The notes beneath the pieces are model-generated. The model searched no databases. It saw only the letters and a list, made by a program, of their open reading frames with translations, and was not told the origin of the DNA. Shown here piece by piece: positions 2,203 through 9,735 of a DNA stretch of 36,422 nt. The DNA lies in contig JARLFY010000060.1 in the NCBI GenBank assembly GCA_031296325.1, positions 1 through 36,422 of the forward strand. The letters are read 5' to 3'. The translations under genes and the position numbers were made by a program. Each line of letters begins with the position of its first letter. Position 1 is the stretch's first letter. Source of the DNA: Acidobacteriaceae bacterium. Lineage in GTDB: Bacteria; Acidobacteriota; Terriglobia; Terriglobales; Acidobacteriaceae.

Positions 2203-3723
2203 CTACGGTTTGTGTTCCCCAAAGACCACCGCCGTAAACAGGAAGATGTCGGTATCTTCCTCCTGCCAGCAGGAGGAGCGCATGCCGGCCTTGCGGCAGG
2301 TCTCTTCCAGAAACGTCTTGCGATCCCATCCCTCCTCCACTGGAACCTGCGGCAGCAGAAGACCCTCGTAGCTTCCGTTCTTCATCAGTAAACCGTGCTG
2401 TCCAACCTTGATCTGTTGAACATTCGTAACGCGCCGGAGAGGCGACAGTACGGAGATCTCATAATCGAGCTGCGGCAACTCCGAGGCCGAGACCGCGCGA
2501 AATCTTGGATCTTGCAGAGCGGCGAAGGTGGCCGTGTCCCGCACGGTCAGGTAGAGGGGTTTCGTCGCAGAGGTGTAGCCGATGCACCCCCGCAGCGCGC
2601 CTGATTTGTGCAGGGTCACAAACGCGCCGCGATCCTGATTCAGCGCCTCGCTGACGCTTGCCTCTGGCTGATACATCTCTCTGTGTTGCACCGCATACTC
2701 GACCGACTTGCGAGCCAGAGCCAGCAACTCTTTCTTGTCGTGGTCGTTCAGGGAAAAGGGCTGCTCCGCCGCCTCGCCATCCTGTGCTTTCACAAAGACG
2801 TCTGCGCTGTATCCGACCACGCGCGTGCGATCTCCTGATGTATCTCCTGAGTTGGCGTACTTGAGTACCTTTGCCTGATTGGCTCCCATGCGCTCGGCGG
2901 CGATCATTGCGGCAACGATAGGCGCTCCGCCACATGCCTCCCAGACGCGCGATTGAAAGTTCCGCGACATGCTCAGGTAGTCCCACTCTGCCAGAGCGTT
3001 CAGCGTCTTATGATCCATCTTCGCCGCTTCGTTATACGGGTAATAGTGCGACAGATCGGAGCTTGCCACGATCAGCGTATCCCCGCCCTGGATCAGCTTC
3101 GCCAGAGCCACGCCCAGAGCGCGGCTGCTCTCATAGCTCTGGTCTCCCATCACGATGGGTACAAGTTCAAATTCACCCAACACCCGCTGTAGCCACGGCA
3201 ACTGCACCTCAATGGCATGTTCGGCTCCCTCTGGCGTGTGGTCGTGCCCACGGCCGGAGAGCCGCAGGGTGGAATTCATCTTAGTCAGCTTTCCGGAAAA
3301 CGCTTTATCCACTGGAATGCTTCCCAGTGGAGTGACATAAGCGTCCCCGTCATAGACAGAGGTAAAGTTGAAGGCTTCGTAATGCGACGGAGCAATCACA
3401 ACCACACGCGAGAATTTGCGTCCCTTCAACTCCGCATAGGTATAGGCAGCCACCGGGCCGGAGTACGGATATCCAGCATGCGGCGCAACCACGGCGAGGA
3501 TAGAGCCTTTGATCGGCGGAGCGGTTGCATGGGCCAGCATGTCGTCGATCATCGCCGAAAGCGCCTTGGGGTTGGACGGATAAAAGCTGCCAGCAACCCC
3601 GGCCTCTCTTATCTTCGGGGAACCTTCTCCCCAGGCTTGCGGCCAAGGAGCCATTGCCAGTAGAGCGACGAGTGGAACTTTGAGCCAATCCATCTTGCAC
3701 CGCCTCTTGCGTTTTTGTTTCAC
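2203..3723 (-). CDS. AmmeMemoRadiSam system proteins B and A, fused and carrying a signal peptide
   Basis: This is one 506-residue protein holding two partners usually seen as AmmeMemoRadiSam proteins B and A. Residues ~35-315 are a Memo-like domain (relative of class III extradiol dioxygenases) with the putative metal or active-site residues H82 (APHAGYPYSG), H114 (SHYEAFNF), D223 and H226 (SSDLSHYYPY) and C264 (EACGGAPI). Residues ~328-503 are an AMMECR1 domain with its LRGCIG signature at 377-382. The biochemical function of either domain in bacteria is not settled. The N-terminus (MDWLKVPLVALLAMAPWPQAWG) looks like a cleavable signal peptide, which would put the protein in the periplasm. 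The longest frame starts with GTG at 3723. The ATG at 3693, with AGAGG upstream, is at least as likely and removes 10 residues. It lies 13 bp after the radical SAM gene, hence in one operon. Confidence 0.9.
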   Translation of the reverse strand: MKQKRKRRCKMDWLKVPLVALLAMAPWPQAWGEGSPKIREAGVAGSFYPSNPKALSAMIDDMLAHATAPPIKGSILAVVAPHAGYPYSGPVAAYTYAELKGRKFSRVVVIAPSHYEAFNFTSVYDGDAYVTPLGSIPVDKAFSGKLTKMNSTLRLSGRGHDHTPEGAEHAIEVQLPWLQRVLGEFELVPIVMGDQSYESSRALGVALAKLIQGGDTLIVASSDLSHYYPYNEAAKMDHKTLNALAEWDYLSMSRNFQSRVWEACGGAPIVAAMIAAERMGANQAKVLKYANSGDTSGDRTRVVGYSADVFVKAQDGEAAEQPFSLNDHDKKELLALARKSVEYAVQHREMYQPEASVSEALNQDRGAFVTLHKSGALRGCIGYTSATKPLYLTVRDTATFAALQDPRFRAVSASELPQLDYEISVLSPLRRVTNVQQIKVGQHGLLMKNGSYEGLLLPQVPVEEGWDRKTFLEETCRKAGMRSSCWQEEDTDIFLFTAVVFGEHKP

Positions 3724-3736
3724 CTCTTCGGCTCGC

Positions 3737-4822
3737 TCAAACGTGCCAGATTCCGGGAATCGGGGTCTGGCAAAATGGACAACAATCGTTGCGAATCAGC
3801 ATCTCGCTGGCTGTAAATCCTACGCGCTCCACCAGCATTCGACGGCACTTCGGACAGTAGGTGTTCTGCGCAGGATGTCCCGGAACGTTCCCGATATACA
3901 CATAATGGAGACCCTCGGCATCGGCAATCGCCTTCGCCCGATCCAGAGTCTGCACCGGGGTGATGGACAGATCCTTCATCTGATATGACGGATGAAACTG
4001 GGTGAAGTGCAGCGGAACATCCGGGCCAAGATTCGCCATGATCCAGCGCGCCAAGCCAAGGAATTCGGAGTCGCTATCGTTGAGCGACGGAACCACCAGA
4101 TAGACGATCTCGGTCCACTTATCCATCTTCCGCAGAGTGACCAGCGAATTCAGCACGACCTTCAACTGTCCGCCAACTATTTTTCTGTAGTACGGCTCGG
4201 AGAAGGACTTCAGATCGATCTTGACCGCGTCCATCTTTCCGTACGCCGTTCGTAGCGCCTCTTCCTGTATGTAGCCATTCGACACGACCACGCTGCGAAG
4301 CCCTGCTGCATGTCCGGCATCTGCAACATCCATTAGAAACTCACTGAAGATCACCGGTTCGTTGTAGGTGTAGGCAATCGTCGGACAATGATTCAGCTTC
4401 GCCAACTCGACAATTCGCTGCGGGGGCATGTATTCGGCGGGAGCCAGTTCTGGACGAGCCTGCGAGATGTCCCAGTTCTGGCAGAACTTGCAACTCACAT
4501 TGCAGCCAGCCGTCGCCAGAGAGAAGGCGAGCGACCCCGGCAGGTAGTGAAAGATGGGCTTCTTCTCGACCGGATCAACGTGCGCCGCGCAGACCCGCGA
4601 GTGAACCAGCAGATAATAGACTCCCCCGCGATTCTCCCGCACGCCACAGTAGCCGCGTTGTCCCTCTCCCACAATGCATTCGCGTGGACAAAGATAGCAT
4701 TTGATCTTCTTGTTGGGAAGTTTCTTGTAGAATTTGGCTTCGACCGTGAAGCGCGAATCGTCCTGCGCTGACCCGCCCATCGCAGCCTCTGCGCAGCCTT
4801 GCAGATCAGACTTATGCAGCAT
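3737..4822 (-). CDS. amrS: AmmeMemoRadiSam system radical SAM enzyme
   Basis: This 361-residue radical S-adenosylmethionine protein is the enzyme member of the AmmeMemoRadiSam set; its reaction is unknown. The cluster-binding motif CNVSCKFC has cysteines 107, 111 and 114. An N-terminal Cys motif (C42, C45, C49, C59) and a C-terminal CPKC plus CPFC pair suggest further metal sites. The family's usual length is matched by starting at the ATG at 4822, which has GGAGG six bases upstream. A TTG at 4942 is also preceded by a strong GGGGAGGAG and would add 40 residues (401 in total) without any hydrophobic stretch. No signal peptide is seen with either start, so the enzyme should be cytoplasmic while its operon partner appears exported. 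It is the first gene of the two-gene operon. Confidence 0.92.
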   Translation of the reverse strand: MLHKSDLQGCAEAAMGGSAQDDSRFTVEAKFYKKLPNKKIKCYLCPRECIVGEGQRGYCGVRENRGGVYYLLVHSRVCAAHVDPVEKKPIFHYLPGSLAFSLATAGCNVSCKFCQNWDISQARPELAPAEYMPPQRIVELAKLNHCPTIAYTYNEPVIFSEFLMDVADAGHAAGLRSVVVSNGYIQEEALRTAYGKMDAVKIDLKSFSEPYYRKIVGGQLKVVLNSLVTLRKMDKWTEIVYLVVPSLNDSDSEFLGLARWIMANLGPDVPLHFTQFHPSYQMKDLSITPVQTLDRAKAIADAEGLHYVYIGNVPGHPAQNTYCPKCRRMLVERVGFTASEMLIRNDCCPFCQTPIPGIWHV

Positions 4823-4942
4823 GACGAACCTCCAGCCACGCGTCCGCCTACCAAAGTCCATTAGATTGCTCTTCTCCTCGCAGGGTTGTCCGAGGTTCGG
4901 CGTTGGCAGCAGTCGCAACACAGCGTGGCGCTCTTTCTGCAA

Positions 4943-5451: not shown

Positions 5452-6052
5452 CTAGTTGGCTGGCGGAGGCATATCGTCAACTGGATGAGGCGATGTTTGC
5501 GGCGTATGGCTAGTCGGCGCCGCTGAGTGATGCGTAGATTTCCGAACGCCTGCTCGCTTTGAACTGCCAGCGCGCCGCTTCGCCGGTTTAGTTGCCACAG
5601 GCACAAGCGGAGCACTCACCGCCGCTGGTGCGGGCGCTGGTGTGACCGTGGGAGAACTGGACATCATCGCTCCGACGATGGAAAACACCACACCGCCTGC
5701 AACGAAGGCCAGAAAAATCTTGAGGCCGCTGCCCTTTCCCGATGGTGTAGACGCACTGGAAGGATCGACAGAACTCGGAGCGGCGGACGGCTTGCTGGTG
5801 CTGGAAGAATATTGGCGATTGTAGAGGCCGGTTCCGGGGATGGAGGCCGCTGTGTACGATCTTCCCTTGGCGTCTTGAATAAAGAACACTTGCCCCGCTT
5901 GTACTGGTGATGGAGGCCGCTGTGTACGATCTTCCCTTGGCGTCTGTACCTACGCGGAAGCCGCGCACCCCGATGGAAGTTCCTACGCCGGACTTGGAGA
6001 AGTTCAAGCGGAGCGGGCCGAGTTTGAGACTGCGACGGAATCGCCAAGCCAT
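5452..6052 (-). pseudogene. DUF4236-domain membrane protein gene, frame-shifted by a 70-bp duplication
   Basis: Reading from the ATG at 6052, the first ~48 residues (MAWRFRRSLKLGPLRLNFSK, then VGTSIGVRGFRVGTDAKGRS) match the start of DUF4236 proteins. Reading then enters a 33-bp spacer and a second copy of a 37-bp segment (5909-5945 and 5839-5875) in the wrong frame. The frame ending at 5452 carries the expected continuation (PGTGLYNRQY), a Ser/Pro-rich linker, a membrane helix (GLKIFLAFVAGGVVFSIVGA) and an Ala/Pro/Lys-rich tail. The two frames differ by one base, and removing 70 bp (one repeat plus spacer) would give a single ORF of about 177 residues. The gene is therefore either broken or switchable. 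The function of DUF4236 is not known to me. Confidence 0.7.
5839..5945. repeat. Two 37-bp perfect direct repeats 70 bp apart
   Basis: Bases 5839-5875 and 5909-5945 are identical. They are separated by 33 bp that resemble neither flank. They lie inside the DUF4236 gene and are the cause of its frame shift, since 70 is not a multiple of three. Confidence 0.93.
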
Positions 6053-6291: not shown

Positions 6292-9200
6292 TTGAAGTCA
6301 TTTGTGCGGAGCGTTCTCTGTGTTGTTTGGATTGCTGGATTCTGCCAGCCATTTTTGCTGGGGCAGGGTTTTAGCCTCTCTGGGGTGGTGCAGGATGAAA
6401 GTGGAGCGCGCATCGCACAGGCGCAGATTACCGTTCGTAGCGGGGCGGCGGGCGAGGTGTTAGAGGCTAAAACAGGCGAACAGGGCGAGTTTCACGTGGA
6501 GGTTCCGGCGGCGGGCAGCTACCGAGTCGTGGCTGCGGCGGAGGGATTCAAACCAACCATTCTGCCGATCCTCCTCACTGCGCAGTCGCCAGTCGCAAAG
6601 TTGGCGCTGACGCTGGAACCAGCCGAGCGCAGCGAGACGGTGCAGGTTTCGGCAGACGCTTTGGCTGCCGAGACCACCAGCACCCAGTTAGGAGAGACGC
6701 TGGAGAGCGGGAAGATGGAGGGAGTGCCGCTGAACGGTCGCAACTTTACCGACCTGATGGCAGTGCAGCCAGGGATCGTTCCGTCGAACACCTCACAACC
6801 CGGAGCCGTGATTATGACTGGTGTGGCTGCAACGCCGCCGTCGGGCAACGCCAACCCCGGAAACCTCTCGATCAGCGGGCAGCGCGAGAGTTCCAACGGA
6901 TTTCGTGTGAACGGGAGCGATGCCGAGGAGGACGTGAATATGGGCACGTCGATCGTGCCGAATCTCGATTCGATCGAGAGTTTTCGTGTGCTGACCAGCA
7001 ACTTCGACGCGGAGTACGGCAACTCCAGCGGCGGACAGGTTCTGGTAACGACGAAGTCGGGGGGAGCGAAGTGGCACGGCTCGGCCTTTGAGTTTCTGCG
7101 CAACACAGCGTTGGACGCGCGCAACTACTTCTCGCAGGATCGCGCAGTCTATCGTCAGAACCAGTTTGGCGGAACGCTGGGAGGAACGCCGATTGGCAAG
7201 AGCAAGAACCTGTTTCTGTTTGGGGACTATCAGGGAACGCGACTGACGGAGGGCATCGACACGGGCAATATCGCGGTGCCGTCGAATGCCGAGCGCGGTG
7301 GAGACTTCAGCCAAACTCCGCTAACCGGTAGCGTGAATGGCGCAGCCTGGGCGACGCAACTTTCCACCCTGCTGGGACGCAAAGTTACCGCAGGCGAGGC
7401 TTATTCCTCGGTCTTTCCCGACGGAAAGATTCCGCAGTCGTCCTGGTCGGCTCCTGCTCAGTATTTATTGACGTCGATTCCACAGCCCAATGCCGGAGTC
7501 GGTCTCTTTGAGACCGCAGTCGGAACCGAGACTCTGCGCGACGACAAGGGAGCGTTGCGCATGGACTGGACGCACGGTCGGGGAACGCTGACGGCGTACT
7601 ACTTTCTCGATCAGTATTCGCTGGACAATCCCTATCCCACCGGCACGGGAGGAGCAAGCGTTCCGGGTTTCGATGCGACATCGAGCGGGCTGGCGCAGCT
7701 TGTCAGCGTGGCAGATGTTGTGCCGATCGGCGAGGCTTCGCTCAATCAGATTCACCTGAGCTACATGCGCAACGCCAACGCCGTGGGCCAGCCGAAGGGC
7801 GGCGTTGGTCCATCGCTGGCCGCGCAGGGATTCACCTCTGGCAGTAACGGCGGCAATGGGATTGTTGCGTTGAAACCCTCCACGGAAGGAATCGAGAACA
7901 TCGTATTCAATGATTTCACGCTGGGAGTGGATACCACGGCTCTGGTGCAGGCTGAAAATATCTATGAGGCGAGCGAAGCTTTTTCGCACATCGTCGGCAA
8001 TCATGGACTCAAGTTTGGCGGCGAGATTCACGCGAATCAGATCAATACGCACCCCGACGTGATCTTCAATGGCAGCTTCGCCTTCAGCGGCTCGGAGACG
8101 GGAGTGGACTTCGCCGACTTTCTGCTCGGCGTTCCATCCAGCTACACGCAGGGACAGGCGAGCAGCTTTTACAATCGCAATCTCTATGTCGCTGCATTTG
8201 CGCAGGATAGCTGGCGGACGAATGAGCAGCTCACGGTAAACTACGGGGTGCGCTGGGATCGCATCCGTCCGTGGGAGGAGAAGTTCAATCAGCTACAGAC
8301 GCTGGTGCAGGGCGAACAGTCGCAGGTCTACCCCGGAGCACCACTGGGGTTGGTCTTCCCCGGAGATCCCGGCGTGCCGCGCTCGCTCGCTCCTGCGCAG
8401 AACAATCTATCTCCGCGCATCGGCATTGCGTACTCTCCCGCCGTCGCTGAATCTTCCTGGCTGAATAGACTGATTGGCTCCGCAGGCCAGACCAGCCTTC
8501 GCGCCGGTTACGGCATCTTCTACACCGCGTACGAAGGACTTTCGGCTGGAATCATGAGTGCCAATCCGCCGTATGGCTACACCTATACATCGGCAGCTCC
8601 GCCGCTGTTCGCCTCGCCGTTCACCGTAGCAGCGACAGGAGCCAGCGCGGGACAGCGTTTCCCCTTGCAAGACGTGCCCTACGGAGCCAGTCGTTCGCAT
8701 CCCAACAGCTCTGTTAACTGGAGCAAGTTCGAGCCTCTGGTCGGCATTCCTGCCGTCGATCCGCGCGACGTAACGCCCTATGCCGAACACTGGATGGTCA
8801 GCGTCGAGCGGCGATTCGACACGACGACCCTGCTTTCACTCAGCTACATCGGAGCGGCGGCGCATCATTTGCTCGCTCTGGAAGAGGTGAACCCGGCCGA
8901 TCCAGAACTTTGCCTGCGCCTTGGCTCAACGCTCTGCGGCCCATTCAATGAGCAGGCTGCGCGCACGCAGTTCGGCCCAGCCTTCGGTTCGGTCGAGTTG
9001 CAACGCACCATCGCCAACTCCAGCTACAACGCTCTGGAGGCCTCGATCAACCACCGCAGTCACGGGGTGGAGATGCTGGCCAGCTACACCTTCAGCAAAT
9101 CCATCGACGAGTCCGCCGGACTATCCGAGCCAGTGAACCCGATCGATCCCTCCCTCAGTCGAGCGCTCTCTTCCTTCGACCTGCGCCACAACTTCGTCAC

Positions 9201-9735
9201 CAGCTTCCACTATGACCTGCCCAGACTGAGGGACGGCAATCGGCTCAACCGACTCGCCAATGGCTGGAGTCTAGCCGGAATCGCGCGCTTCACCTCGGGC
9301 TTGCCCGTCACTCTGCTCAACAACAACGACACCTCGCTGCTGGGCACAATTCCCAACGGCATCAACAACAACGGGGTGGACACGCCAAACTGGAGTGGAC
9401 GCTCGCTGCAACTCAACCGCAATCCCCGCAAGGGCCAGCCCGTCTTCGACGCCAGTCAACTCACCCTACCCGCGCTGGGCAGTATGGGCAATGCACGGCG
9501 CCGTTTCTTCTCCGGCCCCGGCATGGAGAACCTCGACGCAACACTCTCGCGCAAGTTCGTCGTCGAAGGCAGTCAGATGCTCGAACTCCGCGTCGAGGCA
9601 TTCAATCTGCTCAATCACGCACAGTTCTTCGGAGCCGCATCGGTCCAAGGCAATCTCTCCAGCGGCGATTTTGGTCAGACGGTCAGCGCCGCTTCTCCGC
9701 GCCTGCTGCAACTAGCCCTGCGCTACCAGTTCTGA
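6292..9735 (+). CDS. Oar-like TonB-dependent outer-membrane receptor
   Basis: This 1147-residue outer-membrane protein belongs to the large Oar/CarboxypepD_reg type of TonB-dependent receptor that is common in Acidobacteria. A signal peptide covers residues 1 to ~25. A carboxypeptidase-regulatory-like beta domain covers about 28-110 (FSLSGVVQDESGARIAQAQI). The plug follows (~115-260, with VPLNGRNFTDLMAVQPG and EYGNSSGGQVLVTTKSG), then a long barrel ending in LQLALRYQF, whose terminal Phe fits the BAM recognition signal. The start is TTG at 6292, chosen because AGGGGAG lies 5 bases upstream and the signal peptide begins there. Such receptors import large or scarce ligands, often oligosaccharides, using the proton-motive force. 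The ligand cannot be deduced, and no hydrolase or transporter gene is adjacent. It stands alone as a single transcription unit. Confidence 0.92.
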   Translation: MKSFVRSVLCVVWIAGFCQPFLLGQGFSLSGVVQDESGARIAQAQITVRSGAAGEVLEAKTGEQGEFHVEVPAAGSYRVVAAAEGFKPTILPILLTAQSPVAKLALTLEPAERSETVQVSADALAAETTSTQLGETLESGKMEGVPLNGRNFTDLMAVQPGIVPSNTSQPGAVIMTGVAATPPSGNANPGNLSISGQRESSNGFRVNGSDAEEDVNMGTSIVPNLDSIESFRVLTSNFDAEYGNSSGGQVLVTTKSGGAKWHGSAFEFLRNTALDARNYFSQDRAVYRQNQFGGTLGGTPIGKSKNLFLFGDYQGTRLTEGIDTGNIAVPSNAERGGDFSQTPLTGSVNGAAWATQLSTLLGRKVTAGEAYSSVFPDGKIPQSSWSAPAQYLLTSIPQPNAGVGLFETAVGTETLRDDKGALRMDWTHGRGTLTAYYFLDQYSLDNPYPTGTGGASVPGFDATSSGLAQLVSVADVVPIGEASLNQIHLSYMRNANAVGQPKGGVGPSLAAQGFTSGSNGGNGIVALKPSTEGIENIVFNDFTLGVDTTALVQAENIYEASEAFSHIVGNHGLKFGGEIHANQINTHPDVIFNGSFAFSGSETGVDFADFLLGVPSSYTQGQASSFYNRNLYVAAFAQDSWRTNEQLTVNYGVRWDRIRPWEEKFNQLQTLVQGEQSQVYPGAPLGLVFPGDPGVPRSLAPAQNNLSPRIGIAYSPAVAESSWLNRLIGSAGQTSLRAGYGIFYTAYEGLSAGIMSANPPYGYTYTSAAPPLFASPFTVAATGASAGQRFPLQDVPYGASRSHPNSSVNWSKFEPLVGIPAVDPRDVTPYAEHWMVSVERRFDTTTLLSLSYIGAAAHHLLALEEVNPADPELCLRLGSTLCGPFNEQAARTQFGPAFGSVELQRTIANSSYNALEASINHRSHGVEMLASYTFSKSIDESAGLSEPVNPIDPSLSRALSSFDLRHNFVTSFHYDLPRLRDGNRLNRLANGWSLAGIARFTSGLPVTLLNNNDTSLLGTIPNGINNNGVDTPNWSGRSLQLNRNPRKGQPVFDASQLTLPALGSMGNARRRFFSGPGMENLDATLSRKFVVEGSQMLELRVEAFNLLNHAQFFGAASVQGNLSSGDFGQTVSAASPRLLQLALRYQF

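Follow-up and report, generated by a model that had tools for sequence, protein, structure and literature searches.

The window, by which we mean the whole 36,422-nucleotide stretch analyzed here (Acidobacteriaceae bacterium, assembly GCA_031296325.1, contig JARLFY010000060.1), harbors an AmmeMemoRadiSam locus, comprising a gene for a radical S-adenosylmethionine (SAM) enzyme and an adjoining gene in which Memo and AMMECR1 domains are fused. We judge, with a probability of about 75%, that this locus belongs to an extracytoplasmic AmmeMemoRadiSam branch and has been rearranged; in this branch, the ancestral enzyme would have been exported by twin-arginine translocation (Tat) and the fusion by the general secretory (Sec) route. 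The case for an exported branch rests on relatives and not on the window enzyme, its basis being signal peptides, the enzyme tree and a break in DNA homology, with all export calls made from sequence. The features of the enzyme gene are as follows:

3737..4822, minus strand: AmmeMemoRadiSam radical SAM enzyme, 361 residues from ATG 4822; export signal absent in this copy
4481..4504, minus strand: CX3CX2C cluster motif CNVSCKFC (C79/C83/C86)
4763..4779, no strand: limit of the DNA homology shared with nine out of ten close relatives, L113-L122 (4750 for L120), with the relatives' Tat signal lying beyond, as does the DUF362 gene in nine
4829..4833, minus strand: GGAGG resembling a ribosome-binding site, six bases before ATG 4822

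The preliminary description had recognized a complete AmmeMemoRadiSam set, and this holds, as each of the three parts scores above its NCBIfam cut-off: 381.2 bits vs. 220 for the enzyme (AmmeMemoSam_rS, TIGR04337), with CX3CX2C intact, and, for the fusion, 264.5 bits vs. 26 (AmmeMemoSam_B, TIGR04336) and 184.5 bits vs. 99 (AmmeMemoSam_A, TIGR04335). Scores against glycyl-radical activase families (PFLA, YjjW and others) fell below their cut-offs (57.6 bits vs. 231.75; 60.9 vs. 250.2). Its reading of the enzyme as free of a signal also stands, no Sec or Tat signal being found from either start, ATG 4822 or TTG 4942. The genome of the window (2.6 Mb in 94 contigs, 88.8% complete) has a single match to each of the three families (radical SAM, Memo and AMMECR1), and it encodes TatC. 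A family search found enzymes of the window class in 30/200 genomes, its own included (at least 58% identity by our reading of the table); neither the ten genus mates examined nor 43 further genomes gave a match.

The ten closest relatives of the window enzyme (74-80% identity) all bear a Tat signal. To place this count in a wider frame, loci were taken from Acidobacteriota (L002-L111), from the family (L113-L131) and from a named set (L152-L231, the best 80 of at least 551 relatives), with identical domains counted once; the Tat test was mechanical and motif-based, and N-termini were also read by eye. Among Acidobacteriota loci with a fused partner in view, 29/33 enzymes were Tat-positive (200 residue shuffles gave a mean of 1.0 and a maximum of 3), the four misses showing SRR motifs by eye, vs. 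0/12 with an unfused partner and 11/37 with no partner in view. Family loci with a fused partner gave 18/18, plus 1/1, with the window at 0/1. The named set yielded 15/24 with a fused partner (plus 5 Sec-like), 2/9 with an unfused partner, of which that of L195 is taken as real, and 13/45 with no partner in view (plus 7 Sec-like); the calls for L226 (fused) and L204 (unfused) were judged false, the motif lying upstream of the likely start. The 40 enzymes called exported among these best 80 span 20 named phyla or candidate phyla. Another 20 radical SAM loci, mostly from genomes whose fusion had no enzyme in view, included 12 passing the Tat test and 17 with the motif by eye, L095, L107 and L111 being without it. 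Genome G007, from the same family, is a second case somewhat like the window, pairing an exported-looking fusion (L057) with a sole radical SAM match (L107) that is a signal-less enzyme of another class.

The enzyme tree groups these signals. In a FastTree phylogeny built from 172 radical SAM domains (without L123-L151; all supports are FastTree local supports), 94 of the 96 enzymes labelled exported fell within one branch of 107 rows (support 98), in which 82 rows are Tat, 12 are Sec-like and 13 carry a cytosolic label. The 13 include the window as well as, by eye, five rows with an RR motif and two with a KR motif. The remaining 65 rows are cytosolic, save for two export calls judged false. 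Among RR motifs seen by eye and missed by the test, those of L062, L064, L068 and L079 were relabelled Tat in both the tree and the neighbor counts; those of L093, L101, L102, L103 and L108 stand as cytosolic in the tree and were relabelled in the neighbor counts. The window enzyme belongs to an 11-row branch (support 100), the other 10 members of which are all Tat. Its end branch (0.18) equals that of L120 and exceeds most in the 11-row branch (0.03-0.09), so that constraint may be somewhat relaxed, with catalytic residues all intact.

The window enzyme thus lies in the exported branch beside a signal-bearing fusion, yet its own Tat signal is missing. DNA similarity to L113-L122 spans both window genes and ends where the relatives' Tat region begins. 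Away from the enzyme and fusion pair, on contig C68 of the same genome, we found a block in the order polyferredoxin, DUF6599, DUF362, DUF362 (L135, 3407-7959), in which both DUF362 genes carry RR motifs; such genes precede or adjoin the enzyme gene in some relatives, and the first DUF362 of the block is up to 54% identical to the relatives' DUF362. The end of homology at the Tat region, together with DUF362 and polyferredoxin genes on another contig, suggests that this copy has been rearranged and its enzyme has lost the signal (unless the contig is mis-assembled), and most likely the enzyme now starts at ATG 4822 without an export signal. A frameshift in the Tat region was rejected: none of the three frames shows a recognizable Tat signal, and the DNA there is unalignable with the relatives. 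The window holds no significant remnant of a DUF362 or spermidine-synthase-like gene (best E 0.032), and composition revealed no clear island. Synteny was unusable for an empty-site comparison, since the flanking nucleotidyltransferase finds best matches of only 25-31% identity in the genus-mate genomes.

The features of the fusion, the second element of the predicted exported pair, are given below:

2203..3693, minus strand: Memo-AMMECR1 fusion (a single chain uniting AmmeMemoRadiSam proteins B and A), 496 residues from ATG 3693; alternative GTG start at 3723
3628..3693, minus strand: predicted Sec-type signal peptide MDWLKVPLVALLAMAPWPQAWG, cleavage AWG/EG by eye; called from a hydrophobic-segment test and the similar N-termini of relatives
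2803..3603, minus strand: Memo domain; H82/H114/C264 (numbering of the 506-residue form) align with the iron ligands H49/H81/C244 of MEMO1
2221..2721, minus strand: AMMECR1 domain with conserved LRGCIG motif
3703..3706, minus strand: GAGG, weakly resembling a ribosome-binding site, nine bases before ATG 3693

That Memo and AMMECR1 form a single open reading frame is borne out by Pfam as well as NCBIfam matches on one chain, with Memo (PF01875, E 1.2e-63) at residues 41-307 and AMMECR1 (PF01871, E 3.3e-55) at residues 335-501 of the frame 2203..3723 on the minus strand; both domains share one frame in 57/60 candidate loci (58 counting the window). As had been proposed, the fusion does argue for a fixed 1:1 partnership of the two. 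The two genes adjoin, but the 13-bp gap reported earlier applies only from GTG 3723; from ATG 3693, which we prefer as the start given GAGG nine bases upstream, the gap is 43 bp. From that ATG, the chain opens with MDWLKVPLVALLAMAPWPQAWG and continues with EGSPK, with the Memo domain thereafter; by eye this is an n/h/c-type signal that lacks a lipobox cysteine, and the window fusion was positive in the hydrophobic-segment test (simple hydropathy), in keeping with the signal-type N-terminus noted before. The preliminary description called for a survey of Acidobacteria for fused and split forms and for signals, and here the same test was positive in 51/56 fused proteins of the Acidobacteriota loci vs. 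0/12 unfused Memo proteins; fused relatives scored 17/18 (family) and 19/24 (named set), and a second group of unfused proteins 0/8. It also held that a homolog whose alignment starts after the hydrophobic segment would count against export. The MEMO1 alignment does cover the fusion from residue 29 on, but this is a poor criterion, a start past the segment being expected for a cytosolic homolog of an exported protein. Fusion and predicted export are nonetheless separable traits, because L208 and L226 are fused without a recognizable signal and L195, next to an enzyme with a Tat signal, is unfused; for this reason, the notion that fusion equals export was dropped.

One sub-branch within the exported branch carries a further mark of export. 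A haem-c-like CxxCH motif lies between signal and catalytic domain in 15/15 rows of this sub-branch (support 86; 14 of the rows at 100), drawn from Acidobacteriota, Latescibacterota and Chloroflexota apart from one unassigned row, with a further histidine downstream in each by eye. The CxxCH alignment was selected for the motif, and the grouping in the tree is an independent statement. Covalent haem attachment takes place outside the cytoplasm, and the motif therefore supports export, though it is from sequence that we infer haem binding. The Tat-type enzymes with CxxCH are L047, L058, L062, L064, L065, L068, L069, L073, L077, L079, L088, L169, L171, L179 and L192. Hits in L203 and L220 were judged false, one being upstream of the start and the other part of an N-terminal cysteine motif. 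CxxCH is absent from the window enzyme.

Neighboring genes were clustered in the extended loci of the 16 nearest family members. A DUF362 gene with a Tat motif directly precedes the enzyme gene in 10/16 (L136-L145), and a spermidine-synthase-like gene is found in 15/16. The full order (polyferredoxin, DUF6599, DUF362, radical SAM and fusion, with the spermidine-synthase-like gene in opposite orientation) was seen in L145 and in L152, the latter from another family (Solibacteraceae). The NapH-NapG-like polyferredoxin of six loci was assigned by clustering in five and by profile in L144. In wider counts, based on export labels with by-eye corrections, a spermidine-synthase-like gene was in view for 20/40 exported vs. 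2/39 cytosolic enzymes of the named set and for 32/49 vs. 0/33 in Acidobacteriota, the two cytosolic cases (L183 and L215) both lying inside the exported tree branch; DUF362 was in view for 8/40 vs. 0/39 and 30/49 vs. 0/33, respectively. Simple hydropathy gives the spermidine-synthase-like membrane protein about 12-13 transmembrane (TM) segments. Where aminopropyltransferases have their catalytic aspartic acid, it has asparagine in 31/67 and aspartic acid in 12/67 cases; the protein may thus be able to bind a nucleoside similar to SAM and yet not act as an ordinary aminopropyltransferase. One such protein (L110:1027-4008) has a C-terminal Fer4_5 (4Fe-4S) match, a possible electron-transfer link, and in four loci, including L055:2244-3563, a LarA-type gene (2-hydroxyacid racemase family) is found close to the radical SAM gene. 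Elsewhere in the window, we noted two 45-nt direct repeats, 93% alike and 70 nt apart (5831-5945), within small open reading frames, one of which (5452-5889) was scanned and has no Pfam match; a perfect 19-nt inverted repeat at the contig start (1-111, arms 1-19 and 93-111); and a large outer-membrane protein (6292-9735) with carboxypeptidase-regulatory-like and beta-barrel (OMP_b-brl_4) domains.

Catalytic and metal residues are conserved on both sides of the tree. Counted by tree labels (exported rows plus window vs. others, with a few rows on the wrong side), the cysteine triad, the four N-terminal cysteines, T113/Y114 and K166 are present in 97/97 vs. 75/75 and D164 in 96/97 vs. 75/75; the C-terminal cysteines are present in 95-97 of the 97 exported rows plus window. 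The structural model of the enzyme (predicted local distance difference test score of 92.3) finds its closest fold in pyruvate formate-lyase (PFL)-activating enzyme with S-adenosylmethionine (AdoMet), and the DxK motif aligns with VMLDLK of that activase, a motif presumably with a role toward SAM. In the fused proteins, the MEMO1-ligand positions are kept as H in 100/100, H in 100/100 and C in 98/100 distinct chains (19/19 each in unfused ones), and the cysteine of LRGCIG in 98/98 fused and 18/18 unfused. A possible target of modification or activation by the enzyme is the AMMECR1/Memo chain, by analogy to the PFL-activase and its partner.

Based on these data, we propose that the ancestral enzyme, similar to PFL-activase, would fold and acquire its Fe-S clusters in the cytoplasm prior to Tat export, with the Memo-AMMECR1 fusion exported by Sec. 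Electrons would be supplied on the outer side of the membrane, perhaps via the NapH-NapG-like polyferredoxin in the family of the window, via covalent haem c on the enzyme in one sub-lineage and via another donor elsewhere, and enzyme and fusion might act jointly on a cell-envelope substrate, or the enzyme might activate the fusion. In the window, the pair would have been split from the operon with loss of the Tat signal, leaving an enzyme that is either cytoplasmic, a signal-less passenger carried out, or part of a system losing function. The enzyme could hitch-hike through Tat with a partner that bears a signal; according to the abstract of PMC10924467, some Tat substrates cross as heterodimers in which a single partner has the signal. 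A broader proposal, which we advance tentatively and hold to be somewhat less likely than its contrary, is that the enzymes of a widespread radical SAM branch perform SAM radical chemistry beyond the cytoplasm. They would draw their electrons from carriers in the membrane or periplasm (in some members a NapHG-like polyferredoxin, in others haem c of the enzyme itself), would act with exported Memo-AMMECR1 and would receive SAM or a related nucleoside from the recurrent 12-TM spermidine-synthase-like protein.

Several observations weigh against these readings: 1) the window enzyme lacks a Tat signal, and an assembly error at 4763-4779 is conceivable; 2) L183, L206, L215, L224 and L230 lie in the exported branch without a recognizable signal, and the N-termini of several members, Omnitrophota for the most part, look like Sec signals or anchors and not like Tat signals; 3) the NapH-NapG-like gene is in view in only 6/16 extended family loci and the polyferredoxin is not significantly associated with export in the wider counts (1/40 exported vs. 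0/39 in the named set; 2/49 vs. 0/33 in Acidobacteriota), so that, being rare, it cannot be the general electron donor; 4) no spermidine-synthase-family (PF01564) match was found in the 88.8%-complete window genome; 5) metals other than haem iron can bind CxxCH too; 6) we know of no SAM route into the periplasm, and to our knowledge the reducing, SAM-containing cytoplasm is the one place where radical SAM enzymes are expected. This last point would favor an exported enzyme devoid of SAM radical chemistry that would instead carry electrons in the periplasm by way of Fe-S/haem, or handle metal together with the iron/copper site of Memo, and the CxxCH motif, the NapHG-like gene of some loci and the Memo metal site all fit redox or metal work. 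We nevertheless consider this rather unlikely, as the triad, K166 and D164 are conserved to the same degree in exported and other enzymes, the DxK motif matches that of the activase and the best fold match is an activase with AdoMet.

The preliminary description had placed the fusion, if truly exported, outside and the enzyme inside, an arrangement in which the two would work apart or be coupled by a small molecule. This would accord with the somewhat similar pair in G007 and with what is read in the window, where the fusion has a signal, the enzyme has none and ATG 4822 is preceded by GGAGG. As a general rule, however, separate compartments are unsupported, since all 10 branch-mates and 29/33 fused-linked Acidobacteriota enzymes bear Tat signals and DNA homology ends at or just before the lost signal; we hold this model to be unlikely. 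Most simply, the ancestral design would have both enzyme and fusion exported, with the window as an exception. A mis-assembled contig hiding a real gene with a normal Tat signal is more improbable still: the abrupt end of homology in a draft genome of 94 contigs would suit it, while the frame that stays open upstream to 4942, GGAGG before ATG 4822 and the polyferredoxin/DUF6599/DUF362 block elsewhere in the genome speak, if not decisively, for a genuine rearrangement. Start codons are predicted, and two Tat calls in the cytosolic part of the tree (L204 and L226) were judged false, which raises the prospect that Tat-like N-termini are cytosolic features or start-codon artefacts; shuffle controls, signals on partners, Tat motifs on neighbors and a haem-c-like motif shared by a whole sub-branch inside the exported branch make this very improbable. 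If the rearranged-member reading is correct, the exported branch, whose members bear Tat signals and, in one sub-branch, a haem-c-like motif, renders extracytoplasmic radical SAM chemistry, which would be very unusual, directly testable and newly constrains what Memo, AMMECR1 and the radical SAM enzyme might do (an envelope substrate, electrons from the outer side, new partners), with the window copy looking like a natural case of signal loss.

AmmeMemoRadiSam is a known kind of system, and its exported branch appears undescribed in the literature searched (without preprints and most subscription papers), in which no listed title or abstract concerned AmmeMemoRadiSam export or a periplasmic radical SAM enzyme and no paper named DUF362 together with radical SAM; "recently-described Memo-Ammecr1 systems" are mentioned in a passage of PMC7159879. 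The locus resembles the system defined by TIGR04335, TIGR04336 and TIGR04337 in that all three families score above cut-offs, the genes are adjacent and catalytic and metal residues are kept, but differs in the fusion of A and B behind a signal peptide, in the Tat signal and occasional CxxCH of the relatives' enzyme, and in recurrent neighbors (DUF362, the membrane spermidine-synthase-like protein and, in some loci, the NapHG-like polyferredoxin). PFL-activating enzyme (PDB 3C8F/3CB8) is the best profile and fold match of the radical SAM domain, yet identity is 17-18%, activase NCBIfam cut-offs are far off, and the window enzyme has additional N-terminal four-cysteine and C-terminal CxxC..CxxC sites. 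The operon polyferredoxin of some loci matches NapH and then NapG, the quinol-to-periplasm ferredoxins, with an RR-type segment in between; in contrast to these, it is one fused chain that scores under both the NapH and NapG cut-offs and lies near a radical SAM gene, nitrate reductase being the usual context of Nap proteins. Finally, MEMO1 (PDB 3BCZ, 7KQ8), which according to passages of PMC11081632 binds Fe or Cu via H49, H81 and C244, shares the domain and these conserved ligands, but is unfused and signal-less (aligning from its residue ~4-5), in contrast to the window protein, which is predicted to be exported and is joined to AMMECR1.

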